From Mesotoga sp. BH458_6_3_2_1 (GTDB taxonomy: Bacteria; Thermotogota; Thermotogae; Petrotogales; Kosmotogaceae): a DNA stretch of 64,000 bases. The notes under the pieces are model-generated. The model saw nothing but the letters and a program-made list of their open reading frames with translations. It was not told the origin of the DNA and did no database searches. A program made the position numbers and the translations under genes. Positions 23,797-37,873 of this stretch are shown piece after piece (within the stretch, counting starts at the first letter, position 1; every line of letters begins with the position of its first letter). Location: contig NZ_JFHL01000017.1 in assembly GCF_003664995.1 (NCBI RefSeq), positions 1 to 64,000 of the forward strand, given 5' to 3'.

Positions 23797-24378
23797 ATGA
23801 GAAAGACTATTCTAGGATTTCTATTACTACTGCTTTTAGTCTTGCCTTGTTCAACTCTTTTCTCAACGGAGACTGAGATGCCTGTTGTTCAGCCCCCTAT
23901 GGTTGTAACCACTATGGGGCAGAGTCCGGGTGCTTTGATGTTCAGACTGGTGTGTACTAGAAGCCAGATTGCCTGTGTTCAGGAGGATCTCTTGACTGCC
24001 GAACAGCTTGCCGAGATGGCGGCAGGAGAAAATGCTCCAAAGACATTGGTCATAACCACAGGAACGAGTCTCAAAGGAATGGGAGCTGCCGGTATTGATA
24101 TGAATTTCGAGGTGAAAAGGGTTGAAGCTCTTATTTCCAAGGCTAAAGAACTCGGAATGACGATAATTGGTGCACACATTGAGGGAATGGCGCGCCGTGT
24201 AGATTCTACTGACGAGAAGTCAATCAACACAGTGATTCCAGAATCAGATCTGATTCTTGTCATTGCTGACAGTGATTCTGATGGTTTCTTCACCAATTAC
24301 TCTGAAGAGAATGGAATACCTCTAGTGAAGGTTAATGAATCGCTAGAGATTGGACCCGCTCTCAAAGAACTGTTTTAG
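23797..24378 (+). CDS. Secreted substrate-binding-like protein, copy A (possibly DUF6305)
   Basis: 193 residues: signal peptide (1-24), then a compact alpha/beta domain of about 165 residues. Hallmarks are VVTTMGQSPGALM near the N-terminus, the strand-turn TLVITTGTSLKGMGAAGID, and a DSDGFF metal-loop-like stretch (DSDSDGF) near the C-terminus. The family is, to my recollection, DUF6305; function is not established. Copies at 34541 and 30791 are paralogues. Being the first gene of a transporter operon, secreted and separated from the permease by a hairpin, it is placed like a solute-binding protein. ATG 23797 follows SD GGGAGGG; the TTG-initiated longer frame begins inside the SD. Confidence 0.72.
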   Translation: MRKTILGFLLLLLLVLPCSTLFSTETEMPVVQPPMVVTTMGQSPGALMFRLVCTRSQIACVQEDLLTAEQLAEMAAGENAPKTLVITTGTSLKGMGAAGIDMNFEVKRVEALISKAKELGMTIIGAHIEGMARRVDSTDEKSINTVIPESDLILVIADSDSDGFFTNYSEENGIPLVKVNESLEIGPALKELF

Positions 24379-24410
24379 TAGGAGAGAGCACAACAATGAT
24401 TCTCTTATCC

Positions 24411-24428
24411 ATCGACCTTTAGGTCGAT
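24411..24428 (+). terminator. Intercistronic hairpin, copy A
   Basis: Perfect stem ATCGACC / GGTCGAT with TTTA loop between the binding-like gene and the permease, without a long T-run. Likely an mRNA-stabilising or attenuating stem-loop. Confidence 0.55.
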
Positions 24429-24448
24429 TCTAAAGGGGGAGTGTGCTA

Positions 24449-25741
24449 GTGTACTTCCACGCTGGTCTAATACTTGCCGTTATTGCGATCTCGTTTGGGA
24501 TTGCAAAGGCTCTAAAGTTAAGTGTTGAGCTCTCTATGCTGGTTGCTGCAATTGCAGCGGCGATTGTTCATTCGGGAGGCGCAATTCCTGTTCGTCATCT
24601 GGTTGAAGGCTCTTTCACTTATCTTGATGTCTGTTTGATCTTTATTACGGCTACTTTCTTCATGAATCTGATAAAGGAGTCTGGGGGAGTCGCCTTTTTA
24701 GTAAGGCGTATAGTTACCGCCTTCCACAAAAGCAGGGCGCTTTGCCTTTTCTTCCTGACCCTGCTCTTATTGATTCCTGGAGCGCTGACTGGATCCGGTG
24801 CTACTACTGTTCTTACAGTAGGAACACTGGTAGGTACGGTTCTCACGTACATGGGAATATCCGAAAAACGAGTGGCTGCGATAATTTTTATCTGTGCCGC
24901 AATGAGTGCTGCTGCGCCCCCAGTTAATCTCTGGGCCATGATGGCAGCCGCCGGCTCGAACATGCCTTATGTAGGCTTCTTCATTCCGCTTTTAGTACTG
25001 TCGCTTGCGGGCTCTCTTTTTGCAATGTTCTTCCTTGGTGGAAAAGGCAAAAAAGTTGAGCTGAGCGAGGCGCTTAAAGAGCTGCCGGAAGCGCCTGCGA
25101 AAATGAACTGGGTAAGGGTAGGTATTCCCTTTGTTGTTCTGATCTTCTTAATAATGGCGGGACGAATTTGGCCTCACTCAATTCCTACGCTGGGACTACC
25201 GTTCATGTTCGTTGTGGCATCCATCTTTGCGATTTTCCTAAGCCCCAAGAAGCTAGAAATCCTCAAAATCGCTACAAATACCATTAACACTTTGATCCCT
25301 CTTGTAGGAATCATGATAGTTGTGGGTATTTTGATACAGATAATGGCTTTGAGCGGCGCAAGGGGATTGATCTCTCTTGCGGTTGTAACGCTGCCTATGT
25401 GGGTTCTGTTTGCGGCGCTATGGCTTATTCTACCGGTGTCAGAGGGATTGCTCCAGTACGCGGTTGCGCCGCTTCTTGGAGTGCCCCTTATACTTCTGTT
25501 TAACATGAAGGGTATGGACGCAATAATCGCCCTTTCTGCGATGGCAGTAATGTGGCCTGTGGGAGACATTCTTCCTCCTACGGCAGTTGTTGGAAGGGCA
25601 ACCGTGATGGAGCTCAAGTTCAAAGGTCGCTACTATAAGGATTTTCTGAAAACTTCGCTTGTACCGATGGGGTTCATTCTACTGATTGCTACATTGTTCT
25701 TGATATTCAGTAATGAACTTTCCTTCTTGGTTGGCGGGTGA
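24449..25741 (+). CDS. TRAP/DctM-like ion-coupled permease, copy A
   Basis: About 430 residues with around 12 hydrophobic helices and an internal two-fold repeat. It resembles the DctM large subunit of TRAP transporters and the wider ion-transporter superfamily: LLIPGALTGSGATTVLTVG followed by MSAAAPPVNLWAMM in the first half, LPVSEGLLQYAV and PVGDILPPTAVVGRA in the second, the two hairpin-type helices. No DctQ small subunit is encoded nearby; the following microprotein may take its place. GTG 24449 is chosen (GGGGGAG seven bases upstream). A close paralogue lies at 35242. Substrate is unknown; context suggests an amino acid, acyl-amino acid or dicarboxylate. Confidence 0.75.
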   Translation: MYFHAGLILAVIAISFGIAKALKLSVELSMLVAAIAAAIVHSGGAIPVRHLVEGSFTYLDVCLIFITATFFMNLIKESGGVAFLVRRIVTAFHKSRALCLFFLTLLLLIPGALTGSGATTVLTVGTLVGTVLTYMGISEKRVAAIIFICAAMSAAAPPVNLWAMMAAAGSNMPYVGFFIPLLVLSLAGSLFAMFFLGGKGKKVELSEALKELPEAPAKMNWVRVGIPFVVLIFLIMAGRIWPHSIPTLGLPFMFVVASIFAIFLSPKKLEILKIATNTINTLIPLVGIMIVVGILIQIMALSGARGLISLAVVTLPMWVLFAALWLILPVSEGLLQYAVAPLLGVPLILLFNMKGMDAIIALSAMAVMWPVGDILPPTAVVGRATVMELKFKGRYYKDFLKTSLVPMGFILLIATLFLIFSNELSFLVGG

Positions 25742-25768
25742 TGTCATGGTCGAAAGGAAGTGGTTTTA

Positions 25769-25933
25769 ATGGCTATTCTGTATACAATTATTAGCGTCTG
25801 CTACTACTTGATAATTGCTTTTATCATTTTTGTTATAGCTAGAAACTTAGTCAAGACCAAGAGTTTTCAGGAGGCAATCCTCTTTTCCGTCATGCTAATG
25901 CCGTTCATTCTGCGAATCTTGAGAATCAAGTAG
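25769..25933 (+). CDS. Transporter-associated membrane microprotein, copy A (54 aa)
   Basis: A 54-codon gene between the permease and the M14 gene. It has one clear membrane helix (about residues 3-24), a polar turn ARNLVKTKSF, and a second hydrophobic/amphipathic helix ending in MPFILRILRIK at the C-terminus. The equivalent position in the second cassette holds a 50-residue protein with the same plan and tail (LPLILRLLRMR). SD GGAAGTGG precedes the ATG. Conservation of order and C-terminal motif shows it is a real gene. Possible role: small membrane subunit of the permease; no family known to me. Confidence 0.72.
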   Translation: MAILYTIISVCYYLIIAFIIFVIARNLVKTKSFQEAILFSVMLMPFILRILRIK

Positions 25934-25944
25934 GGGGTGCTGAT

Positions 25945-27111
25945 ATGACTGACAGAAACCTTATGATTGTCAAGATTGTGTCATCGGTTCTGGTCGGAAT
26001 TGCCCTGATAATCTCGGGAATTGAGTTCTACAACCACCGAAATTTCCAGGAACCGGTTGTCATAGGGCCGGGAGTCACTTCAGTTAAGACTCTCGGTGAC
26101 TACTATACACCCTTGAAGGGCACCATAAACGATACCAATATATACATTATCGACAGCGGCGTGCCCGGTGGGACGGCCCTGGTAATCGGAAGGTCACATC
26201 CTGAAGAACCTGCGACAAATCTAGCTGCCAAGATATTGGTAGAAAATGCAAGCTTAAGCAAGGGAAGACTTATCGTTGCCATAACGGCAAATCAAAGTGC
26301 GTCAAGAGTCACAAGACCGGGCGACGCATATCCGATGTACTACACGATTGAAACACCCTGGGGAGAGAGCAAATACAGAATGGGAGACAGATGGTCAAAT
26401 CCGTTGGATTCCTGGCCAGATCCCGAAGCGTACGTTCACTACCCCAGCGGTCAACTTCTTGCCTACATGGACATACGTAACTTCAACAGAACATGGCCGG
26501 GTAGGGACAACGGAATGATAACGGAACAGACTAACTATGCATTCATGAATCTGATCAGAGAAGAGGGAGTAGACGTCTTCGTCGATTTTCATGAGGCCGA
26601 GCTGGAGTACCCTGTCATAAGCACGATAGTTGCTCATCAGAAAGCCGCTGATATTGCAGGACTAGCCTCAATGATACTTACCTCATCTGAATTTAGGATT
26701 GGCATGGAGTTCTCACCTCCGAGCCTTCATGGGCTTTCTCATAGAGAGGTTGGAGATCATTCCGACGCCATATCTTTGCTGTTTGAGACTCCCGAACCTT
26801 TCCTGGATAGGGTTAGAGGAATCACTGACGAGGCACTTCTGTTAACCGGCAAGGATGAATTTGTTGTGACGGCCGGAAAGTACGGCCTTCTATACGAGAA
26901 GATCGATGAGAAAGGTTGGCCAATCGATTTGAGAGTCGGCAGACACTGCTCCTCGACTCTCATGGTTCTCGAATTGTGGAATGACTTTAATCCCGGAAAG
27001 GAGGTAGTTGTTGGAGGAGTTCCAAGGTACGACGAGGTAGTTAGTAACGGTACCGGCTTTTATTTTCAGGATCCATCCAAAGCAAGTGAGAGCAAGATCT
27101 ACTTTGAATGA
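25945..27111 (+). CDS. Membrane-anchored M14/AstE-like metallohydrolase, copy A
   Basis: 388 residues: N-terminal anchor (about 7-26) and an extracytoplasmic zinc carboxypeptidase/aspartoacylase-like domain. Zinc ligands His85 and Glu88 (RSHPEEP, H-x-x-E) and His216 (VDFHEAE) are visible, with substrate-carboxylate-binding Asn-Arg in RNFNRTWPG and a late glutamate in LLFETPE. Family members remove C-terminal residues or deacylate N-acyl amino acids. Copy A has HPEE where copy B has HANE, so substrate preference may differ. SD GGGGGTG. It lies 11 bases after the microprotein gene. Confidence 0.8.
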   Translation: MTDRNLMIVKIVSSVLVGIALIISGIEFYNHRNFQEPVVIGPGVTSVKTLGDYYTPLKGTINDTNIYIIDSGVPGGTALVIGRSHPEEPATNLAAKILVENASLSKGRLIVAITANQSASRVTRPGDAYPMYYTIETPWGESKYRMGDRWSNPLDSWPDPEAYVHYPSGQLLAYMDIRNFNRTWPGRDNGMITEQTNYAFMNLIREEGVDVFVDFHEAELEYPVISTIVAHQKAADIAGLASMILTSSEFRIGMEFSPPSLHGLSHREVGDHSDAISLLFETPEPFLDRVRGITDEALLLTGKDEFVVTAGKYGLLYEKIDEKGWPIDLRVGRHCSSTLMVLELWNDFNPGKEVVVGGVPRYDEVVSNGTGFYFQDPSKASESKIYFE

Positions 27112-27166
27112 CCGGTAATAACATTATTTTGTTGAGCGTTTTTCCTCAAAAGGGAGGGGTTTTTAG

Positions 27167-28738
27167 GTGAGAAAGCTACTAGTAACGATTGTTCTTGTAC
27201 TATCAGTTTTCTACACGGGATTGCTTGCCTGTACTGACATCGGAGTCGGCAAACTTGCGACCGTTGACGGGTCGGTTATATCAGCCCAGTCTGTAGACGG
27301 TTCATATGACTCCAGACTTCTGATTCAGCCAGCCGCAGACCACGAACCGGGAAGCATGACGCCGGTTTGGGAATGGATAGTCTATGCTGACAGAAGACCG
27401 TTGGTTCAGCTTGGTGAGATACCCCAGGTGGAACATACGTATTCATGGATCCAGACTTCCTATCCATTCTCCAACGAAAAGGGTTTGCTTATGGGCGAGA
27501 CAACACAAGGTGGAGCAAGAGAAACCGCAAACAGCCCGGATGCCATAATGACTATTGAGCAGCTTCAGGCCTTTGCACTCCAGAGATGTACAACTGCTAG
27601 AGAGGCCATTGAGCTTATGGGCTCGTTGGCAGTTGAGTATGGCTACAGAGAATCCTGCTCCCGTGGCGAGGGCCTTACAATTGCAGACGGTGAGGAAGTT
27701 TGGTGGTTTGAGATCTACGGAGTAGGCCCGCTTTGGAAACCAGGTGATGGCCCTGGAGCGATATGGGCAGCACAGCGTGTTCCGGACGACCACATAATGG
27801 TAAATGGAAACGCAAGTATCATTGGTGAGATCGATCTCGAGACGAATCTCCCCCCTGGAGTTTCCGCAGACGACTTCATGATATGTGACAATTATCTCCA
27901 GAGCACTATCGAACTCGGTCTATGGACAGAAGGCCAGGAAGGACCATTCATCTGGAAGAAAGTAATTGGTACCATACGTGACTGGAATCCAAGGCTGTGG
28001 AGAGTATTTTCGATGTTCCAGCCTTCCGGAAACTGGGAATATGGTGGAAACACTTCCGAGTACCCGTTCTCCTTCAGGCCGGATCGATTGGTTTCGGTTT
28101 ACGACATTATCGAACTGTATCGTGATGTTATGACTGACACCCCTGGCGATCAGCTTGCTAACGAGGCATGGCTATACAAAGACAGAGATGGTAACGATGT
28201 TCTTAGCAACCTAGCGACACCTCAACCTGGAACCGAGATTAGAAATCTTCTGGGTCTTCCATCTAGCCAGAGGTTCATTGGCGTTCAGAGTACGAGCTGT
28301 TACTTCATAAACCAGACTAGAAGCTGGCTGCCGCCTGAAATTGGTGCAGTATCTTGGTTTGGACTTGGAAACGGTCACAAAGCAACAGTTGTTCCGATTT
28401 ACGCAGGTATCACAAGAGTTCCGGAATCCTGGGCGACAGTTAACAGAGGAATTGCCAAGATTGACAGAGACGCGGCCTTCTGGGCATTCTATACCGTTGA
28501 CAGACTTTCCGCGCAGAGATACGGAGATATGATGCCTAGAATCGATGCAGTCAGAATTCCTCTTCAGCAGAAGATGTACGATATGCAGCCCGCAATCGAA
28601 GAGACGGCCCTGAAGCTTTACGAAACTGATAGGGACATGGCTGTCGAATTCTTGACTACTTACACGAATTCTCTAATGGTTGAAGTTGAACAAGCTTATT
28701 GGGATCTTGCAGATTCACTTATACTAAGGCTTCCATAA
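27167..28738 (+). CDS. Secreted C69 family dipeptidase, paralogue 1
   Basis: 523 residues, Ntn-hydrolase dipeptidase. A signal peptide of 21 residues ends in LLA and the predicted mature protein begins with Cys22 in ACTDIGVGKLATVDGS, the C69 nucleophile motif. Hence signal cleavage would itself expose the N-terminal nucleophile. Other family features: VDGSYDSRL, YSWIQTSYPFSNEKGLLMGE and the EGLTIADGEEVWWFE strand. GTG 27167 fits SD GGGAGGGG seven bases upstream. It follows the M14 gene by 55 bases. C69 enzymes cleave a broad range of dipeptides; export to the periplasm fits peptide scavenging. Confidence 0.88.
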   Translation: MRKLLVTIVLVLSVFYTGLLACTDIGVGKLATVDGSVISAQSVDGSYDSRLLIQPAADHEPGSMTPVWEWIVYADRRPLVQLGEIPQVEHTYSWIQTSYPFSNEKGLLMGETTQGGARETANSPDAIMTIEQLQAFALQRCTTAREAIELMGSLAVEYGYRESCSRGEGLTIADGEEVWWFEIYGVGPLWKPGDGPGAIWAAQRVPDDHIMVNGNASIIGEIDLETNLPPGVSADDFMICDNYLQSTIELGLWTEGQEGPFIWKKVIGTIRDWNPRLWRVFSMFQPSGNWEYGGNTSEYPFSFRPDRLVSVYDIIELYRDVMTDTPGDQLANEAWLYKDRDGNDVLSNLATPQPGTEIRNLLGLPSSQRFIGVQSTSCYFINQTRSWLPPEIGAVSWFGLGNGHKATVVPIYAGITRVPESWATVNRGIAKIDRDAAFWAFYTVDRLSAQRYGDMMPRIDAVRIPLQQKMYDMQPAIEETALKLYETDRDMAVEFLTTYTNSLMVEVEQAYWDLADSLILRLP

Positions 28739-28762
28739 GTGTAAGATTTCAAGTTATTATTC

Positions 28763-28789
28763 GGGTCGGTCACTGGCCGACCCCATTTT
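28763..28789 (+). terminator. Intergenic hairpin between two C69 genes
   Basis: Stem GGGTCGG / CCGACCC (28763-28769 with 28777-28783), seven-base loop, then CATTTT. Partial terminator or processing signal; the next gene's SD follows at once. Confidence 0.65.
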
Positions 28790-28809
28790 GTGAAAGGGGA
28801 GTGAGAAAT

Positions 28810-30405
28810 TTGAGACGTGCACTTATTTTAGTGTTGGTCCTCATTGTCGGTTATGGTGTAACTGCACTGGCATGCACTTCAATACTTGTCGGGAAAGACG
28901 CATCTGTTGACGGTTCCACAATGGTAACGCATACTTGCGACGGTAGCTATGATGCAAGGCTGCAGGTAATTGCTGGTGGAGTTCATGAAGAAGGCGAAAC
29001 AGTCAGCATCTACAAAGGTCTCTGCCAGGCTACTGTTCCCGGGAGAACCGTCAGCTACGTCGGCGAGATTCCTCAGGTTCCTGAGACATACACCTACTTC
29101 CACATCGGTTATCCTTTCATGAACGAACATCAGGTCATTATCGGAGAGACTACCTGGAGTGGTGAGAGAGCGCTGAGAAATTCGCAGGGCTGGATGACAA
29201 TTGAACAGCTTCAGGTTCTGGGCCTGCAGAGAGGCACAACTGCGCGAGAAGTCATCCAGATAATGGGCGAACTCGCAGAGAAGTACGGTTACGGAGATGG
29301 CGGCGAAGGTCTGACCGTTATCGATGGTGACGAAGCGTGGTTGTTTGAGGTTTGTGGTCCCGGTCCGTTCTGGTCTCCCGGAAGCGAAGAACCCGGAGCC
29401 GTATGGGTTGCACAGAGAATTCCAGATGACCACGTCCTCGTGCATGCAAACAGATCGAGGATTGGCGAGATCGATCTTGAGAACACGGATTACTTCATGG
29501 CCTCACCAAATGTGTACTCAACGGCACAGGAACTCGAGTTGTGGGACGGACAGGAACCCTTCGTTTTCTATGCAGCCTACGGTCCAAAGAATGCCTTCTA
29601 TAACACGAGACGAGAATGGAGAGTTCTCGATCTTCTTGCCCCCTCTCTGGAACTCGATCCCTGGGCAGAAAGATACCCTCTGTCGGTCAAACCAGACAAA
29701 AAGGTTTCTGTTCATGATCTTATGATGATCAAGCGTGATCATTATGAAGGAACAGAATTCGATCTCACGGTTGGCCTTGCCGCAGGTCCTTTTGGCAATC
29801 CCAACAGATACGCGACCTCTTCCAGCCAAAGGCCAGAAGGTGTCAACTACGACGGCTGGGAAAGAGCGATTTCCATGTTCAGATGCTCATATGTCATAGT
29901 TGGGCAGGCAAGAAACTGGATGCCAGATGCAATAGGTGGAGTTACATGGTTCGGTGAAGACGCACCTCACTCAACGGTATACATTCCTTTCTATGCAGGT
30001 GCGACAAGCGTTCCCGAATCATTCAGCCAGGGCGCAAGGGATTACTTCGATAGAACTTTCGCATGGTGGGCATTTAACCATGTTTCGAACCTTGCCGATC
30101 TTAGATATGATGTAGCCATCGAGATGATCAAAGAGGAATATACGAAGTTTGAAAGTGAGTTCCTTACGAATCAGCCGTTGATTGAAAAGGTTGCGCTTGA
30201 TCTTTACAAGAGCAATCCAGAAGCAGCGATTGATTTCATCACGAACTACAGTAACGGTCTCGCTAACAGAGTTGTAGATAGATGGTGGAAACTGGCCGAT
30301 GAACTCATCTACACACTGAACGATGGTTATGTAAATGGTTCTACTGCAGGTTACCCAACCTGGTGGCTTGAAGAAGTAGGATACGGAGCAACAACACAGA
30401 GATAG
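28810..30405 (+). CDS. Secreted C69 family dipeptidase, paralogue 2
   Basis: About 531 residues, paralogous to its upstream neighbour. Signal peptide ends in ALA with Cys22 next (ALACTSILVGKDASVDGS), again placing the Ntn nucleophile at the cleavage site. The family strand EGLTVIDGDEAWLFEVCG and the C-terminal GSTAGYPTWWLEEVG, shared with paralogue 3, are present. TTG 28810 is chosen because AAAGGGGAG is about eight bases upstream and the signal peptide then has normal length; the longer frame overlaps the previous gene. Confidence 0.88.
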   Translation: MRRALILVLVLIVGYGVTALACTSILVGKDASVDGSTMVTHTCDGSYDARLQVIAGGVHEEGETVSIYKGLCQATVPGRTVSYVGEIPQVPETYTYFHIGYPFMNEHQVIIGETTWSGERALRNSQGWMTIEQLQVLGLQRGTTAREVIQIMGELAEKYGYGDGGEGLTVIDGDEAWLFEVCGPGPFWSPGSEEPGAVWVAQRIPDDHVLVHANRSRIGEIDLENTDYFMASPNVYSTAQELELWDGQEPFVFYAAYGPKNAFYNTRREWRVLDLLAPSLELDPWAERYPLSVKPDKKVSVHDLMMIKRDHYEGTEFDLTVGLAAGPFGNPNRYATSSSQRPEGVNYDGWERAISMFRCSYVIVGQARNWMPDAIGGVTWFGEDAPHSTVYIPFYAGATSVPESFSQGARDYFDRTFAWWAFNHVSNLADLRYDVAIEMIKEEYTKFESEFLTNQPLIEKVALDLYKSNPEAAIDFITNYSNGLANRVVDRWWKLADELIYTLNDGYVNGSTAGYPTWWLEEVGYGATTQR

Positions 30406-30420
30406 AGTAATTATTCGTTG

Positions 30421-30452
30421 AGAAGGGCGGGGAGATCTCCGCCCTTCTTCTA
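30421..30452 (+). terminator. Terminator after C69 paralogue 2
   Basis: Stem AGAAGGGC / GCCCTTCT extended by GG..GAG/CTC..CC around GATC, followed by a broken T-run. Likely end of the copy A operon. Confidence 0.75.
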
Positions 30453-30790
30453 TTTGCGGATGAATTCGTTTATCGCAGAACCTTTCCTCTGAAACAGAGG
30501 ATTTGGCAAGCCCTTTCAAAGAGCAAAACAACATTCTTGTATTAACGTCCCTGTTTCAAGGATTCGTCGGAGCCAATCATTGTATTTTGTAGGTCAGGAA
30601 TCCTGCATCATTTATGTACTCCGTTTCCTTGTATGGCTAACTAGAGCTTTTTCCTCCTATTTAACACTTGTGTATCGATTGCGACAAGCGAGCAAATTGG
30701 CAGAAGGCTTTGCTATAATGATTATAAGAAAGTTTTATAACCTAACTTAATGAGTTTTCTGCTTTGGACTAATTATTATTTACTTTGGGG
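30453..30790. other. Gap of about 340 bases holding the promoter of the next operon
   Basis: No gene seen. Contains a small CCTCTG / CAGAGG hairpin near 30486-30500 and an extended -10 element, listed separately. Confidence 0.5.
30711..30719 (+). promoter_or_regulatory. Extended -10 promoter
   Basis: TGCTATAAT, a TGn-extended perfect -10, about 70-80 bases before the copy C binding-like gene; the -35 is poor, as is usual for extended -10 promoters. Confidence 0.55.
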
Positions 30791-31414
30791 ATGGCACTCT
30801 TGAAAATTGCTACGGTTACATTGATTCTCTTAGTTTGTTCGATTCTTTGCTCTCTGACAGTCGAACCTTTGCCCGCGATTGAAGATCCTATGTTAATGAC
30901 AGTTTGGGGTGAGAGCATGGAGCTTCTGAATATAAACTATTTCTGTGACAGCCTTCAGATTGCTCGTGACTATTCTCCGACTGCTAAGATTGAAGATCTG
31001 AATTCCGGTGCGGGGTTCAGGATTGGGAGAGAGCTACCGGAAGAGATTTTTCATCCCTTCTACGTTTTTGGAACTCCATACCGTACTCTTGTTGTCATAG
31101 TCGGAGGTGCTGAACAGGAATCAGCAGAAGATATCATTAGAATTGAGATGCTCGCCTCTTCAGTGAAGGGATCTGGAGGAAAGGTTCTGGCAATAGATGT
31201 CGATGTTGAAGGAACTGGAGACAATCCCGTAAAGGGAGAATTCGTCCGAACAATAGTTCCGTTTCTAGATGTCCTTATAGTAGCTGAGAGCCCCACTGAT
31301 CAATACTTGCCATTTCTGAAAGGTGATATCCCGGTACTGGTGGAGTTGCCGGTTGTCGTAGATCTCATCTCAGTATTTGAAAGGGACTTCGGCGGCGGCA
31401 GGTGCTGTGACTAA
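30791..31414 (+). CDS. Secreted substrate-binding-like protein, divergent copy C
   Basis: About 207 residues; signal peptide (3-23) and the same alpha/beta layout as copies A and B: LMTVWGESMELLNIN matches their VVTTMGQS / VITSAGQS strand, YRTLVVIVGGAEQES matches their TLVITTGTSLKGMGA strand, but the SLKGMGAxG loop is lost. The later VRTIVPFLDVLIVAE strand is kept. The end FGGGRCCD carries a vicinal Cys pair. Start is uncertain: ATG 30791 or TTG 30800, the latter better spaced from GGGG at 30787-30790. It is followed 11 bases later by the propeller gene, not by a permease. Confidence 0.65.
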   Translation: MALLKIATVTLILLVCSILCSLTVEPLPAIEDPMLMTVWGESMELLNINYFCDSLQIARDYSPTAKIEDLNSGAGFRIGRELPEEIFHPFYVFGTPYRTLVVIVGGAEQESAEDIIRIEMLASSVKGSGGKVLAIDVDVEGTGDNPVKGEFVRTIVPFLDVLIVAESPTDQYLPFLKGDIPVLVELPVVVDLISVFERDFGGGRCCD

Positions 31415-31425
31415 CAGGAGGATTT

Positions 31426-32700
31426 ATGAAGAGAATATTCTTATTGGCCGTTATTATGTTAAGCGTACTTGCATTTACAGAGATCAATGTTGAGTATTCG
31501 TTTGCTTACGGAGGAGAAGGCGACGACCTTGCGAACGATCTGGTTTTGCTCAAAGACGGAAGTATTCTAATTGCAGGACATACAACGTCAATTACCGGAG
31601 ATTTCGGGGCCTCGAAAGGGGAAGAGGATTTCCTTGTAGTGAAAATTGACGGCTCTTTTGAAGTGTTGTGGTCTAGAACTTTCGGTGGTAGTGATTCTGA
31701 TGTCGCTGAAGCGATAGCTGAGACAAGAGACGGCGGCTTCATCGTTGTTGGCATGACAGAATCATCTGACGGAGATGTTTCCGTGAGTAACAAGCTTGGA
31801 GATTTCTGGATAATCAAGCTTTCCTCAGAAGGCGAATTACTTTGGGAGAAGACATTCGGGGGAAGTGGCCAGGACCATGCTTACGATGTTGCTGAGAGGG
31901 CCTCGGGAAATTTGGTCGTTGCAGGCTACACGAGATCGGTAGATGGAGATGTTCAAGGCCACGTATGGGGTGAAGATTTCTGGATAATTGAGCTCACTTC
32001 TACAGGAGAGCTTCTAAACCAGTGGACAATAGATGGAGAAAACAACAACGAAGATCTTGCTCGAAAGCTACTGATTACTGACAAAGGCGAGATACTGGCT
32101 GTAGGCTATACGGCTTACAAAGACGTAGGAATTAGCTGTAATTACGTCAACGAACAGGCTGCACTCGCAATCATCGATAATGAAGGAGTTGTCTCTTCCT
32201 ATAAGAGCTACGGTGGTATGTATCTTGAAGATGGTTACGATGTGATGATCTCTGAGGATACGATCGTTATTGTTGGTGAACAGGATGCTGGAGTATCCAT
32301 GTTTTCGAGCGGACTCGGAGGGAAAGACTTTTATGTTGTAACGGTAGACGGCAATGGGCATGAAATCTGGGCGAAGAATTATGGAGGAACCTTTACAGAT
32401 ATAGCACGCGTGGTTCAGCCATTCGGAAACGGTTATTTCCTTGTTGCAGGTCACACAACTTCACAGAATGTTGACGTCAAAGATCCTCTAGGTATGAACG
32501 ATGGGTGGATAATTGTGATAAAGGAGAACGGTGAGCTTGTCGAATCATTATCGGTAGGTGGGTCGGCGGACGATTTAATTCTTTCGGGTGTCAGTTCAGA
32601 TGAAAAGCATATTTTCTGTGGTTATTCAACATCATCTGATGGAGACGTTGAAAGCAACAAGGGCGGAAAAGATATCTGGTTGATTTCGTTAGGGAAATAG
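31426..32700 (+). CDS. Secreted seven-repeat beta-propeller protein
   Basis: 424 residues: signal peptide (1-17) and seven repeats of about 55-58 residues, each built on YGG-x-x-D-D-x-A ... DGSILIAGHTTS ... GDFW-IIKL ... LLWEKTFGG. Repeats start near residues 28, 86, 144, 202, 262, 319 and 377. Seven repeats imply a closed seven-bladed propeller, a binding scaffold. The fourth is the most diverged. SD AGGAGG, 11 bases after copy C of the binding-like protein, so co-transcribed with it and probably with the C69 gene that follows. Confidence 0.82.
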   Translation: MKRIFLLAVIMLSVLAFTEINVEYSFAYGGEGDDLANDLVLLKDGSILIAGHTTSITGDFGASKGEEDFLVVKIDGSFEVLWSRTFGGSDSDVAEAIAETRDGGFIVVGMTESSDGDVSVSNKLGDFWIIKLSSEGELLWEKTFGGSGQDHAYDVAERASGNLVVAGYTRSVDGDVQGHVWGEDFWIIELTSTGELLNQWTIDGENNNEDLARKLLITDKGEILAVGYTAYKDVGISCNYVNEQAALAIIDNEGVVSSYKSYGGMYLEDGYDVMISEDTIVIVGEQDAGVSMFSSGLGGKDFYVVTVDGNGHEIWAKNYGGTFTDIARVVQPFGNGYFLVAGHTTSQNVDVKDPLGMNDGWIIVIKENGELVESLSVGGSADDLILSGVSSDEKHIFCGYSTSSDGDVESNKGGKDIWLISLGK

Positions 32701-32764
32701 ATGAGGTCTAGCGACCTTAAACTGGGGTATATCCCCAATAAAATCTAGTTGGGAGGGGTTTCAT

Positions 32765-34426
32765 TTGCGTAAGATCCTATTGGTCCTGATTGTGGCTGCA
32801 GCAATAGTCAGTATTGGCCTTGCATGTACCACGATCATCGTTACTAAGGGTGCGTCTGTTGACGGTTCGGTAATGACGAGCCATTCAGCTGACTGCGGCC
32901 TTTGTGATTTCAGGTACGTCTATGTTCCACCCGCAGACTATGAAGCGGGAGCAAAGAGAGCAGTATATCCTTTCATCGAGCCATATCCACGTTATGTCGG
33001 TGCAGACATGGGTCCGACCTACAACGATCCAGACCTTCCAGCAACAGAGCCTCTGGGTTACATCGATCAGGTCGAGCACACATTTGGCTATTTTGATGCC
33101 GTATATGGCGTAATTAATGAACATCAGCTGGCAATCGGTGAATGTACATGTTCTGCGAAGGTCTATGCGCAGTCAAGTGCAGATTGTATTTTCGACGTTG
33201 CTGCTCTTTCGAGAGTTGCAATGGAAAGGACTACCACAGCCCGAGAAGCAATAGAACTCATGGGAGCCCTTGCTGTCGAATACGGTTACTACGGCTGGGG
33301 AGAAACATTGACAGTAACAGATCCCAACGAAGCCTGGGTCTTCGAAATCTGTGCGTCGCCTGACAAGAAGAGCGCTCTATGGGCGGCAAAGAAGGTTCCC
33401 GATGGAGAAGTCTTCGTAGAATCGAACATGTTCAGGATAAGAGAACTCGATCCAGAAAGTCCTGACAATATGTTCTCGCCGAATCTTATCGATGTTGCTA
33501 CAGAAGCCGGCTGGTACGATCCCAGTACAGGTCCTATCGACTGGATGGCAACTGTAAGCACAGGAGAATATTCCTACCCTTACTACAGTCTTAGAAGAAC
33601 TTGGAGAGTTCTCGACAGAGTCTCCCCATCTCTTGGACTTTCTCCCTGGGTAGAAGACACTTTCACAAAAGATTACCCGTTCTCTATCGTACCTGACAAG
33701 AAACTGTCTGTGGCCGATGTTATCGACCTCTTCAGGGATCATTACCAGGGAACAGAGTTTGATTTGACTGAAGGACTTGCCGCAGGACCTTTTGGCAATC
33801 CTAATCGCTATGCCGGTTCCAGTAAGCTAATAAAGGGAAGCTGGGAAAGAGCCCTTTCTATCTTCAGATGTGAGTACGTTTTCGTTTCTCAGGTTAGAGA
33901 CTGGCTTCCTGATCCTGTAGGTGGAGTAGTATGGTGGGGAGCAGCTGCACCTCACGAAACGATTCTTGTGCCGATGTACTGTGGAATAACGGACGTTCCT
34001 TATGCTTATGACAGTGGTAGCCTTCAGGAATTCGACTATGATGTCGCATCATGGGCATTCAACTTCATGGGCAACTGGGCGGAACTGAAGTGGAGCTACA
34101 TGTACCCCGAGATTCAGGAACTACAGAAGAAGATCGAAGGAAAGCTCTTTGCAGTACAGCCAGCGATCGAAGCGGCAGCTGCACAGCTTTACGAAACAGA
34201 TCCAGAACTGTGTAAGGAATTCCTTACTGATTACGTTGCCGACGTAACTGACAGAGTAATGGCAGAAGTATGGGATTTCAACGAATATCTAATAACCAAG
34301 TACAGAGATGGATACATAAACGTACCTAACGTTGGTTCTTCAGCTGGATACCCCGACTGGTGGCTTGATGCAGTAGGATACGACGAAGGTCACATTTTCG
34401 GCGACGACGGCTACAAAGCCAAGTAA
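32765..34426 (+). CDS. Secreted C69 family dipeptidase, paralogue 3
   Basis: 553 residues. Signal peptide ends GLA before Cys21 (LACTTIIVTKGASVDGS). It has an insertion rich in Pro/Tyr (FIEPYPRYVGADMGPTYND) after the nucleophile strand, absent from paralogue 1, and several extra cysteines (ADCGLCDF, GECTCSAK) absent from the other two. The C-terminal SAGYPDWWLDAVG matches paralogue 2. TTG 32765 is preceded by GGGAGGGG. A strong terminator follows, separating it from the copy B cassette. Confidence 0.88.
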   Translation: MRKILLVLIVAAAIVSIGLACTTIIVTKGASVDGSVMTSHSADCGLCDFRYVYVPPADYEAGAKRAVYPFIEPYPRYVGADMGPTYNDPDLPATEPLGYIDQVEHTFGYFDAVYGVINEHQLAIGECTCSAKVYAQSSADCIFDVAALSRVAMERTTTAREAIELMGALAVEYGYYGWGETLTVTDPNEAWVFEICASPDKKSALWAAKKVPDGEVFVESNMFRIRELDPESPDNMFSPNLIDVATEAGWYDPSTGPIDWMATVSTGEYSYPYYSLRRTWRVLDRVSPSLGLSPWVEDTFTKDYPFSIVPDKKLSVADVIDLFRDHYQGTEFDLTEGLAAGPFGNPNRYAGSSKLIKGSWERALSIFRCEYVFVSQVRDWLPDPVGGVVWWGAAAPHETILVPMYCGITDVPYAYDSGSLQEFDYDVASWAFNFMGNWAELKWSYMYPEIQELQKKIEGKLFAVQPAIEAAAAQLYETDPELCKEFLTDYVADVTDRVMAEVWDFNEYLITKYRDGYINVPNVGSSAGYPDWWLDAVGYDEGHIFGDDGYKAK

Positions 34427-34434
34427 TCGACTTG

Positions 34435-34470
34435 CCCGCCCCACAGCGGGGCGGGTTTTGCTCTTTTTTT
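34435..34470 (+). terminator. Strong rho-independent terminator
   Basis: Stem CCCGCCCC / GGGGCGGG (34435-34442 with 34448-34455), then TTTTGCTCTTTTTTT. Confidence 0.92.
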
Positions 34471-34540
34471 ATTTCAAACCTTGTAGACGATTTTTGATTC
34501 ATATATAGTGTTGAAGATTTCGAATGAGGAGGTTACTTAC

Positions 34541-35176
34541 ATGAGAAGATTTCTGTTAGTTCTGATTGTAGTTTCTCTTGTCAGTGTTTTTGCGTTTGCC
34601 GAACCCGAGGTGCAGCTCGGATTGCCAGTTGTAATCACTTCTGCAGGTCAGAGCGCAGAGGTTGAAACAGTCAACTATGTTGCCGATGAAGTCGGCTTGA
34701 AGTACGACTACTGTGATGTCCTTTCTAAGGATGAGCTTGCGGCTGGAGTGGGACTCGGTGGAGCCAAGTCAGCAATAGGAAAGCACGTTACCACGCTCTC
34801 TCCCGATCCAGAAGGCACTAAGTTCCAGTCTCTGGTACTCGTTCTTGGTGCCAGCCTCAAGGGCATGGGTGCTTCCGGTCTCTCTGTAGACACAGAAGTA
34901 GACAGACTCAAGGACCTTATAGAATATGCGAAGGCAAACGAAATAAAGATTGTTGCAATTGCTATTGGAGGAGAGATTCAGAGGGGTCTTCCAGGTAGTC
35001 CAATTGAGACAATGATCGATACAGTTGCACCTCACGCTGACGTTTTCGTAGTTACAAAGGATTCAAACGGTGATGGGAAGTTCACGAAGGCAGCGGAAGA
35101 TAGAAACGTTCCAATAGTAGAAATCGATTCTGCGTTTGATCTTCTCGATACTTTTACACAGGTATTCGGTTTGTAG
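34541..35176 (+). CDS. Secreted substrate-binding-like protein, copy B (possibly DUF6305)
   Basis: 211 residues: signal peptide ending AFA (residues 1-20), mature alpha/beta domain. Shares with copy A the strand PVVITSAGQSAEVE, the loop LVLGASLKGMGASGLS, the helix DRLKDLIEYAKAN and the C-terminal DSNGDGKFTKAAEDRNVP, which resembles an acidic metal loop. It has an extra segment (GLGGAKSAIGKHVTTLSPDP) that copy A lacks. ATG 34541 follows SD AGGAGG by eight bases. First gene of the second cassette. Confidence 0.75.
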   Translation: MRRFLLVLIVVSLVSVFAFAEPEVQLGLPVVITSAGQSAEVETVNYVADEVGLKYDYCDVLSKDELAAGVGLGGAKSAIGKHVTTLSPDPEGTKFQSLVLVLGASLKGMGASGLSVDTEVDRLKDLIEYAKANEIKIVAIAIGGEIQRGLPGSPIETMIDTVAPHADVFVVTKDSNGDGKFTKAAEDRNVPIVEIDSAFDLLDTFTQVFGL

Positions 35177-35186
35177 TTTTTTGGTG

Positions 35187-35218
35187 GCCGGCACAGTAGA
35201 ATCATCTACCGTGCCGGC
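35187..35218 (+). terminator. Intercistronic hairpin, copy B
   Basis: Long stem GCCGGCAC-A-GTAGA / TCTAC-C-GTGCCGGC with an ATCA loop, in the same position as the hairpin of copy A, between the binding-like gene and the permease. No T-run follows, so it is more likely a stabilising stem-loop than a full terminator. Confidence 0.7.
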
Positions 35219-35241
35219 TCCAATTAAAGGGGGGAATCAAA

Positions 35242-36546
35242 ATGTCAGCTGACGCAATATACATGCAAACGATCATAGCCGGGCTAGTCATGGTTGGAGC
35301 CTACGCCGTTGGAAAGTTTCTGAAGTTTTCAACGGAACTATGTATGTTTGTTGCAGTAATCGGAGGAGCAATTGCCGGAGGAGCAGGTTTTGACACTTTC
35401 AGGCATATTGCCGAAGGATCGGTAACCTACCTCGACATTGGACTCATCTTTGTATTTGCAACGATTTTCATGAATATTATCAAAGAGTCGGGAGGAACGA
35501 ATTATATAGTCAGAAAGATTATCGGAGCTTTCCACAACAAAAGAATACTGATGCTTATACTTCTTATGCTGGTAATATTAGTTCCAGGAGCACTTACAGG
35601 AGCGGGAAGCATCTCTGTTCTGGTTGTCGGAGGAACGGTCGCGGCCGCTCTCAATGCAATGGGACTTTCAAAGGTAAGAATATCTGCATTGATTTTCATT
35701 GTTGCCGGTTTGAGTGCCGCTGCTCCTCCAGTCAATATCTGGGCGATGATGACCTGCGCCGGAACAGCCATTCCTTACGTTGGATTTACCATGCCACTTC
35801 TGGTACCGGTGCTGATTCTCGGTCTCTTCTCGGTTCTATTTTTTGGACGTGGAGCTGGAAACATCGACAAAGAAAAGGCTCTAAAAGAGATTCCCGATCC
35901 CAAAGGGCTCTCCGGGTGGAGCGTTGCTGTTCCTTTCCTTGTCTTGATATTCTTGCTTGGGGCACCGAGAATCTGGCCGTTCGGGTTCCCGGTCCTTGGA
36001 TTGCCTTTGGTATTTGCGATATGTACTCTGGTAGCGTGGCTAATGAACTTCAAGAGAGTAAATATTTTGAAGGTCAGCAGAGAAACCGTGGCTCAGTTAA
36101 CACCACTCATAGCGACTACTGCAGTTGTCGGTATGCTGATACAGGTAATGAGTTTCAACGGTGTCAAGGGCTTGATCTCTATGTGGATTGTCACAGCTCC
36201 TCTTGCAATAGTCTGGATTCTACTTCCTTTCATAATACCGATATCGGAAGGTCTCCTGACTTATGGTGGTGCTATGGTAATAGGTATACCTCTCATGTGG
36301 ATGTTGAATTCGAACGGGATCAACCCGGTAATCGTTTTGGCAGGACTGAGTTTACTGTGGCCTCTTGGGGATGGATTACCCCCGACTGCACTTATCGGAC
36401 GCTTGACAGTTAGCACAGTCGGGTACAAAGGCTCATATGGCTCGTTCTTAAAAGAGTGCGTGGTACCCTGGGTAGCCATAACTGTCGTTGCAATGATTCT
36501 GGTTATCTTTGCAAATAAATTCAACTTCCTGATGATGGTAGGTTGA
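35242..36546 (+). CDS. TRAP/DctM-like ion-coupled permease, copy B
   Basis: 434 residues, about 12 hydrophobic helices, clear paralogue of the permease at 24449. Shared motifs include VTYLDIGLIFVFATIFMNII, PGALTGAGSISVLVVGG, LSAAAPPVNIWAMM, IPISEGLLTYG and PLGDGLPPTALIGR. As in copy A no four-helix DctQ subunit is encoded; the microprotein gene starts 15 bases downstream. SD AAAGGGGGG. Substrate unknown. Confidence 0.78.
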   Translation: MSADAIYMQTIIAGLVMVGAYAVGKFLKFSTELCMFVAVIGGAIAGGAGFDTFRHIAEGSVTYLDIGLIFVFATIFMNIIKESGGTNYIVRKIIGAFHNKRILMLILLMLVILVPGALTGAGSISVLVVGGTVAAALNAMGLSKVRISALIFIVAGLSAAAPPVNIWAMMTCAGTAIPYVGFTMPLLVPVLILGLFSVLFFGRGAGNIDKEKALKEIPDPKGLSGWSVAVPFLVLIFLLGAPRIWPFGFPVLGLPLVFAICTLVAWLMNFKRVNILKVSRETVAQLTPLIATTAVVGMLIQVMSFNGVKGLISMWIVTAPLAIVWILLPFIIPISEGLLTYGGAMVIGIPLMWMLNSNGINPVIVLAGLSLLWPLGDGLPPTALIGRLTVSTVGYKGSYGSFLKECVVPWVAITVVAMILVIFANKFNFLMMVG

Positions 36547-36561
36547 GGAGGAGGTGTCGTC

Positions 36562-36714
36562 ATGACTTTGATTATGTTTCTGTATTATGTGATGACAGCC
36601 TATGTGGTAGGCATGCTTATCTGGAACTTCATAAAGACAAAGGATATCAAGAGCGAAATATTATACACACTGGCTCTCTTGCCCCTCATTCTCAGATTGC
36701 TTAGAATGAGGTAG
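36562..36714 (+). CDS. Transporter-associated membrane microprotein, copy B (50 aa)
   Basis: 50 residues; membrane helix at about 3-22, polar turn WNFIKTKDIKSE, second helix ending LPLILRLLRMR at the very C-terminus, matching the MPFILRILRIK tail of copy A. SD GAGGAGGAGGTG, very strong, lies just before the ATG. The stop codon overlaps the SD of the downstream M14 gene (GTAGGAGGG). Duplicated position, size and tail argue that it is a functional subunit or regulator of the permease. Confidence 0.75.
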   Translation: MTLIMFLYYVMTAYVVGMLIWNFIKTKDIKSEILYTLALLPLILRLLRMR

Positions 36715-36724
36715 GAGGGATATT

Positions 36725-37873
36725 ATGATGAGAAAGCTAATAATAGCCGTTATTCTAGTGCTCGTAGTCCTGGCTGGTGGAATACCTCTATATATTCAGA
36801 GGGGGTTCAAAGAAGAAGTTGTTGCCGGGCCAAGTGTAACGAACGTATTCAAACTCAGTAAGTACTTCGATGGAATCGAAGGAACAATAGCTGACACAGA
36901 CGTTTTTGAACTTAAGGGTGCAGAAGAAGGTGGAAAGACGCTTATTATAGCCGGAACCCATGCTAACGAACCATCTGCCGCCTTACTAGCCTATTTCTTC
37001 ATTGAGAATCTTGAAGTGGAAAAGGGAACAGTATATATTATTCCGCATTTCAACCTGAGTGGTTCTCTGGGACCGCAGCCCGGTGGCGGCTTCCCTCTTT
37101 ACTACTATCTTGATACGCCCTGGGGTGAACAGGCCTTCAGAATGGGTGACAGAGGGTTCCAGGCGCTTGATCAATGGCCGGACCCAGACGTGTATGTCCA
37201 CTATCCCGACGGGCAGCTCCTTTCGTATATAGATGCCAGAAATACGAACAGAGCATGGCCAGGAAGACCGGACGGTTACCTTGCTGAGAAGGTATGCTTT
37301 GCTGCCATGGAAATGATTCGCGGCGAAGGAATCGATATTGCAATCGATCTTCACGAGGCGGAAGCCATGTATCCAGTAACCAATTGTATAGTTGCTCCTG
37401 AGAAATCCATGCCCTATGCAATTGGAGCGGCATTCTACGTCAAGGGAAGGGAAAAGTTTGAAAATCACGTAGAGTCTTCGCCTTCAGGTTACAGAGGTCT
37501 TTCTCACAGGGAGATTGGAGATTGGTCTGATGCCTATCCATTCTTGCTGGAATCTCCTGGAGTACACTTGGATCAGATTACCGCTGCAAAAACGCCTGAA
37601 CTGATTATTGACGGCATAGATCCATTTGTTCTCAAAGCTGGCGAAAAGGGCCTTCTATACGTTCCTTACGATGAGAATGGATTCTCCATGGACAGAAGAG
37701 TTGGACAGCATTCTTCAGTTATTCAGGAGATTCTGTCTCAGTGGACGAAGAAGAACCCCGAACGTGGATTTGAGATCTCAGCTCCAAAACATGCGGACAT
37801 TGTGGAAAATGGATTGGGATTCTACTTTAAAGATCCTTCTGAAGTAGATTCAAAAATGGTGTATCTACAGTAG
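36725..37873 (+). CDS. Membrane-anchored M14/AstE-like metallohydrolase, copy B
   Basis: 382 residues, paralogue of the protein at 25945: anchor (5-23), zinc motif GTHANEP (His79, Glu82, the classic AstE/M14 form), Asn175-Arg176 in RNTNRAWPG, His210 in IDLHEAE and a late Glu in LLESPG. The conserved YLDTPWGEQAFRMGDRGFQ segment is shared with copy A. The start could be either of two adjacent ATGs (36725 or 36728). Last gene of the cassette, ended by a strong hairpin. Confidence 0.82.
   Translation: MMRKLIIAVILVLVVLAGGIPLYIQRGFKEEVVAGPSVTNVFKLSKYFDGIEGTIADTDVFELKGAEEGGKTLIIAGTHANEPSAALLAYFFIENLEVEKGTVYIIPHFNLSGSLGPQPGGGFPLYYYLDTPWGEQAFRMGDRGFQALDQWPDPDVYVHYPDGQLLSYIDARNTNRAWPGRPDGYLAEKVCFAAMEMIRGEGIDIAIDLHEAEAMYPVTNCIVAPEKSMPYAIGAAFYVKGREKFENHVESSPSGYRGLSHREIGDWSDAYPFLLESPGVHLDQITAAKTPELIIDGIDPFVLKAGEKGLLYVPYDENGFSMDRRVGQHSSVIQEILSQWTKKNPERGFEISAPKHADIVENGLGFYFKDPSEVDSKMVYLQ

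Follow-up and report, generated by a model that had tools for sequence, protein, structure and literature searches.

A conserved DUF6305-permease-microprotein-M14 cassette in Mesotoga and its linkage to poly-gamma-glutamate genes

What is the role of a TRAP-like permease whose gene stands with those of a secreted DUF6305 protein, a membrane microprotein and an M14 zinc enzyme? The question is raised by a 64,000-nucleotide stretch of Mesotoga sp. BH458_6_3_2_1 (contig NZ_JFHL01000017.1, positions 1 to 64,000; here, the window), which holds two such four-gene cassettes. A first-pass annotation of this DNA had proposed that they serve the extracytoplasmic hydrolysis and import of peptides or N-acyl amino acids. 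Here, we find that the four genes make up a single conserved unit and that this unit recurs beside the poly-gamma-glutamate (PGA) genes PgsB, PgsC and TIGR04332 in distant phyla. The cassette probably serves PGA systems as an accessory module, likely one for extracellular hydrolysis and import of glutamate or short gamma-oligomers. The genes concerned are as follows.

23797-24378, + strand: DUF6305 secreted protein, copy 1 (Pfam PF19823, 2.2e-50, 170.7 bits; cut-off 25)
24443-25741, + strand: IT-superfamily (DctM-like) permease, copy 1 (weak Pfam DctM match, 4e-4, below cut-off)
25769-25933, + strand: two-helix membrane microprotein, 54 residues, copy 1 (family profile)
25945-27111, + strand: membrane-anchored AstE/AspA-like M14 zinc enzyme, copy 1 (alignment motifs; DoeB/AstE structure profile match, 7.7e-13)
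27167-28738, + strand: secreted C69 peptidase (PF03577, 6.3e-48; signal peptide junction LLA/CTD)
~28801-30405, + strand: secreted C69 peptidase, start approximate (PF03577, 1.1e-73; junction ALA/CTS)
30785-31414, + strand: third, diverged DUF6305 protein (PF19823, 1.3e-8, 35.0 bits; cut-off 25)
31426-32700, + strand: secreted propeller-like repeat protein (sequence repeats)
32765-34426, + strand: secreted C69 peptidase that goes with cassette 2 (PF03577, 2.5e-54; junction GLA/CTT)
34541-35176, + strand: DUF6305 secreted protein, copy 2 (PF19823, 1.8e-43, 148.3 bits; cut-off 25)
35242-36546, + strand: IT-superfamily permease, copy 2 (AlphaFold2 [AF2] model, pLDDT 94.7; TRAP QM and DASS/INDY folds best)
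36562-36714, + strand: two-helix membrane microprotein, 50 residues, copy 2 (family profile)
36725-37873, + strand: membrane-anchored AstE/AspA-like M14 zinc enzyme, copy 2 (PF24827, 4.9e-7, above cut-off)

A conserved unit around a TRAP-like permease

The layout first described for this locus holds. Both cassettes (23797-27111 and 34541-37873) have the same gene order and strand at the coordinates originally given; three C69 peptidases with signal peptides lie between them (Pfam C69, 6e-48 to 1e-73), and the propeller-like protein shows about seven GG-D repeats, counted by eye. The third DUF6305 gene, among the C69 genes, had been overlooked. Genes of the window cassettes look functional by their signal peptides and catalytic motifs and by the purifying selection on them.

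Scanned against genome contigs of bacteria and archaea, the permease returned at least 563 relatives, from which the best 80 loci were kept; because these stand nearest to the query, the counts cover this family rather than DctM-like permeases at large. The microprotein was present in 76 of 77 testable loci, the single exception being a contig that ends 302 bases past the permease. Where the contig was long enough, the M14 enzyme was found in 69/69 loci, DUF6305 in 34/34 and C69 in 25/34. The 3.23-Mb genome from which the window comes has four permease cassettes in total, and all four permeases adjoin DUF6305, microprotein and M14 enzyme. The four genes thus behave as one unit, and the opposite case raised by the first-pass annotation, that such permeases mostly occur without the other three genes, is clearly contradicted by the 80 loci. 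Distance matrices of the four proteins also correlate across 77 cassettes (r = 0.80-0.95, computed without an unlinked-gene control and with a contribution from species kinship). Together, co-occurrence and co-divergence rule out chance neighbours. Weak permease matches in five other Thermotogota genomes (~1e-7 to 1e-8) fall in larger frames of 631-675 residues; DUF6305 is absent from all five genomes, and the matches are probably ordinary superfamily relatives.

By sequence, matches of the permease to DctM-type proteins are weak or absent: copy 2 has no Pfam DctM match, that of copy 1 is the subthreshold one listed above, and the profile match to IseQM is 3e-4. The AF2 model of copy 2 was closest in fold to TRAP QM (TM 0.72), and DASS/INDY transporters also matched; nearly all of 44 PDB matches at E<=0.001 were IT-type transporters. 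With PP motifs at 162-163 and 380-381, the modelled protein qualifies as an IT-superfamily permease with an inverted-repeat elevator fold. At 434 residues, the permease is too short to include a fused Q domain; Pfam gave no DctQ match for the microprotein, and no permease-microprotein gene fusions were found. The microproteins are under purifying selection (dN/dS of 0.04-0.07 for copy 1 in two related species and ~0.02-0.15 for copy 2) and, judged by these ratios, are real genes; long microprotein frames resemble artefacts of overlapping high-GC reading frames.

A standard TRAP system is ruled out, as had been suspected. There is no DctQ, DctP genes located genome-wide lie on contigs C21 and C15 only (no genome-wide search for TAXI receptors was made), and the secreted partner at the cassettes is DUF6305. 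The cassette permease resembles TRAP transporters (DctM; IseQM 9pym, SiaQM 7qha/8thi) in its match to the M subunit, by profile as well as by predicted fold, and in its two partners, one secreted and the other a small membrane protein. It differs in lacking DctP and DctQ, with a single-domain DUF6305 protein, a small partner of ~50 residues and an M14 enzyme in the same array. With DASS/INDY and other IT transporters (VcINDY, NaCT, ArsB) it has its predicted overall fold in common, a likeness of fold rather than of sequence membership; to our knowledge, known members of these families have not been reported with partners of the cassette type.

The two window cassettes are, from sequence comparison, ancient paralogues. 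Copies 1 and 2 are 29% identical in DUF6305, ~45-46% in the permease, 36% in the microprotein and 42% in M14, and in the tree each window cassette clusters with cassettes from other families or phyla. These identities and the tree rule out a recent tandem duplication. The cassette can therefore still be called duplicated, as it was at first, in the sense of ancient paralogy (29-45% identity) but not of recent copying. Two congeners (L243, L244) have copy 2 without copy 1 adjoining, so the bracketing arrangement is lineage specific.

Linkage to poly-gamma-glutamate genes

We clustered 736 neighbouring genes with no target chosen beforehand and named the families by NCBIfam. The top three recurrent extra neighbours were TIGR04332, PgsB and PgsC (17, 17 and 14 loci, respectively), often in one array with the cassette. 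The order PgsB-PgsC-TIGR04332-DUF6305-permease-microprotein-M14-C69 was found in Bacteroidota (L140) and Gemmatimonadota (L126 and L133), PgsB-PgsC-TIGR04332-C69-DUF6305-permease-microprotein-M14 in KSB1 (L122), and DUF6305-permease-microprotein-M14-C69-PgsB-PgsC-TIGR04332 in Spirochaetota (L235). A Thermotogota locus (L057) reads PgsB-PgsC-TIGR04332-GGT-DUF6305-M14-permease-microprotein, where GGT is gamma-glutamyltranspeptidase; at other loci, the PGA genes adjoin the cassette in the opposite orientation.

The association extends to whole genomes. Among 103 Thermotogota genomes, TIGR04332 was found in 17/19 that bear the permease and in 0/84 others (Fisher 1.5e-17; Fisher values ignore phylogeny and are indicative only), and the two permease-bearing genomes that lack it are split into 420 and 640 contigs. 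It was also present in 45/50 cassette genomes reached via other loci, a set that includes two Thermotogota genomes already counted among the 103. In Spirochaetota, 13 of 296 genomes have TIGR04332, including all 4 with a strong DUF6305 match, in which the two genes lie on one contig ~5-7 kb apart. All major clades of the permease tree include linkage to PGA genes (19/95 permease rows linked; 13 changes). This recurrence is a better argument than the Fisher values, and it would speak for an old functional tie.

These distributions bear on the possibility that the cassette scavenges peptides or N-acyl amino acids from ordinary protein, its link to PGA reflecting a common envelope or biofilm location and not the substrate. 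Such a role would suit C69 enzymes, which are dipeptidases, and an M14 enzyme whose nearest relatives, AstE, AspA and DoeB, act on N-acyl amino acids; four cassettes beside a single PGA locus, and the additional M28, M14 and S9 peptidases at many loci, also agree with it. Yet TIGR04332 is rare, being absent from the cassette-free Thermotogota and from most Spirochaetota, and it nonetheless follows the cassette and shares gene arrays with it in distant phyla; in addition, one cassette type (type B, below) uses a gamma-glutamyltranspeptidase. We regard general scavenging as unlikely. It is very improbable that the PgsB-PgsC-TIGR04332 locus makes another gamma-linked or peptide polymer, which the cassette processes: the assignment of PgsB is by profile only, and the use of secreted hydrolases from unrelated families is what a varying polymer would lead one to expect, but most full-length PgsB members tested pass the curated equivalog cut-off.

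In the window genome, PgsB scores 246 bits (cut-off 223), PgsC 93.9 (just below its cut-off of 96.5) and TIGR04332 347 bits. These genes lie on contig C29, where the type B cassette is ~32 kb away, and are directly adjoined by an OPT oligopeptide transporter (L229:10349-11971). A Spirochaetota locus (L230:9862-16839) has PgsB-PgsC-TIGR04332 without a cassette, followed by other genes.

Bacillus PGA systems (PgsB/CapB, PgsC/CapC, PgsA/CapA, PgsE/CapE, CapD/GGT, PgdS) are similar to the linked loci in having PgsB, PgsC and a GGT-family enzyme. They differ in that TIGR04332 joins PgsB and PgsC at cassette loci and in that described Bacillus operons lack the DUF6305-permease-microprotein-M14 module.

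Secreted hydrolases, the M14 enzyme and a candidate salvage route

Three cassette architectures were distinguished. Type A, to which both window copies belong, is DUF6305-permease-microprotein-M14 with C69 before or after; the order C69-DUF6305-permease-microprotein-M14 of cassette 2 recurs in locus L060. Type B (L046, L050, L057, L059) carries a secreted gamma-glutamyltranspeptidase (TTHxS motif in Thermotogota members); most of its members read DUF6305-M14-permease-microprotein, often with extra M14 copies. A third type, from Aminicenantes, has an M28 peptidase and, between DUF6305 and permease, a protein of ~206 residues. An accompanying secreted hydrolase is usual, which bears out the original view that extracytoplasmic hydrolases belong with the cassette, and it is C69, gamma-glutamyltranspeptidase or M28; the core thus stays constant and the hydrolase varies among unrelated families. 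In the window, the C69 signal peptides end in Ala immediately ahead of the Cys nucleophile, so that cleavage by signal peptidase would itself uncover that residue. The signal peptide directly abuts Cys in Thermotogota and Clostridia C69, and in most Aminicenantes a short extra segment lies between.

The M14 enzymes keep their catalytic residues. H79, E82, N173, R176, H210 and E276 are invariant in 22 aligned sequences, and copy 1 retains the HxxE, RNxNR, DxHE and catalytic Glu motifs, although a Pfam match above cut-off was obtained for copy 2 only. From the N-x-N-R motif, we would expect exo-cleavage in preference to endo-cleavage. In sequence the enzymes are nearest AstE/AspA/DoeB (profile match to structures, 7.7e-13), which strip acyl groups off N-acyl amino acids, and no PghP match was seen. 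The phage-type PghP and PghL are likewise zinc enzymes of carboxypeptidase fold, but the cassette M14 falls on the AstE/AspA/DoeB side. An orphan AstE/M14 paralogue with no permease nearby is present in the same genome (L049:8292-9365, contig C12).

The mature part of DUF6305 copy 1 was modelled as a one-domain parallel alpha/beta fold (AF2 pLDDT 94.4), in which the conserved loops come after strand ends. Lys70, Arg85 and Arg111 are invariant or nearly so and would suit an anionic ligand. A sequence search against the PDB gave no significant match, and a known enzyme was rejected as an identity, since fold searches returned mostly SGNH/GDSL-like matches at low TM (~0.4). DUF6305 is not named in the literature searched, from which most subscription journals were missing.

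From these components, we propose the following route. Outside the cytoplasmic membrane, PGA or other gamma-glutamyl peptides would be cut by a secreted hydrolase of the C69, gamma-glutamyltranspeptidase or M28 family, and the membrane-anchored AstE/AspA-type enzyme would free the C-terminal glutamate, a residue that is chemically an N-acyl-glutamate and so fits such an enzyme. DUF6305 may bind the anionic product. The elevator permease, presumably in complex with its obligate two-helix microprotein, would bring glutamate or short gamma-oligomers into the cell, probably powered by a sodium or proton gradient, and the outcome would be turnover and salvage of the cell's own polymer or that of its neighbours. 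There are precedents for the hydrolytic steps: in B. subtilis, gamma-glutamyltranspeptidase takes units off PGA at its N-terminus (PMC4497714), and the PGA hydrolases of phage type belong to the zinc enzymes with a carboxypeptidase fold (PMC6506827). Together with the permease fold, the M14 motifs and the DUF6305 residues, they favour hydrolysis outside and import. The earlier proposal of peptide or N-acyl-amino-acid hydrolysis and import thus survives in its enzymology, as the AstE/AspA branch fits an N-acyl enzyme, with its scope narrowed toward gamma-glutamyl compounds by the PGA-gene linkage and the swapped peptidase families.

An opposite direction of flow was also considered, in which M14, GGT and C69 trim PGA or fix it to the envelope in the manner of CapD, and permease, microprotein and DUF6305 are part of an export or anchoring machine or a small-molecule exporter. 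The collinearity of the cassette with PgsB-PgsC-TIGR04332 and the single-domain, rather than two-lobe, DUF6305 are compatible with this, and CapD, the enzyme that anchors PGA, is itself a member of the GGT family (PMC4497714). We judge such polymer maturation quite unlikely, however: the predicted permease fold resembles that of carboxylate/Na+ transporters, the elevator fold being that of small-carboxylate transporters, most sampled Spirochaetota genomes with TIGR04332 lack the cassette, and four cassettes against one synthesis locus support uptake with diversified substrates.

Several points nevertheless weigh against hydrolysis and import of PGA units. Import is a prediction, and PGA production in these organisms is predicted from its genes. 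The two window cassettes do not adjoin the PGA genes of their genome. Nine of the 13 TIGR04332-bearing Spirochaetota genomes lack DUF6305, which shows that PGA genes can exist without the cassette, and 5/50 cassette genomes have no TIGR04332 match; the link is therefore strong but not obligatory. The fold of DUF6305 has one lobe, which sets it apart from classical binding proteins. C69 was without a match near 9/34 fully visible cassettes, several of which have M28 instead, and C69 enzymes are known for ordinary dipeptides, the nearest solved structures being annotated just as dipeptidases.

We tentatively suggest that the cassette represents a new transporter class, in which an IT permease with an obligate microprotein, a one-lobe DUF6305 receptor, and anchored zinc and swappable secreted hydrolases recovers PGA units in many uncultured anaerobic phyla. 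The scheme offers a testable function for DUF6305, for an unannotated microprotein family and for a divergent permease family. If true, there would be a dedicated PGA salvage route in Thermotogota, Aminicenantes, Gemmatimonadota, Bacteroidota and Spirochaetota, with a bearing on whether, in anaerobic communities, the polymer is kept as a store or shared as a common good.

Further genes around the cassettes

The third DUF6305 protein of the window (30785-31414) lacks the main glycine loop GASxKGxGAxG. Its conservation in related species and its purifying selection (dN/dS ~0.13-0.26) rule out a pseudogene. The propeller-like repeat protein was seen in Thermotogota loci only in the neighbour clustering and is a lineage-specific companion. 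The ~206-residue protein of the Aminicenantes type has no Pfam match and lies just upstream of the permease in seven loci (for example, L090:9304-9939, L124:9318-9938 and L142:5598-6218).

Elsewhere in the window genome, an orphan DUF6305 gene without a permease (L047:8318-8926, contig C26) is divergent from a gene for a transglutaminase-core protein (L047:9184-10602), and the neighbourhood of L064 resembles this pair. Weak DUF6305-like stretches also occur within larger open frames of 441-683 residues at four Spirochaetota loci (L223, L224, L225 and L226).

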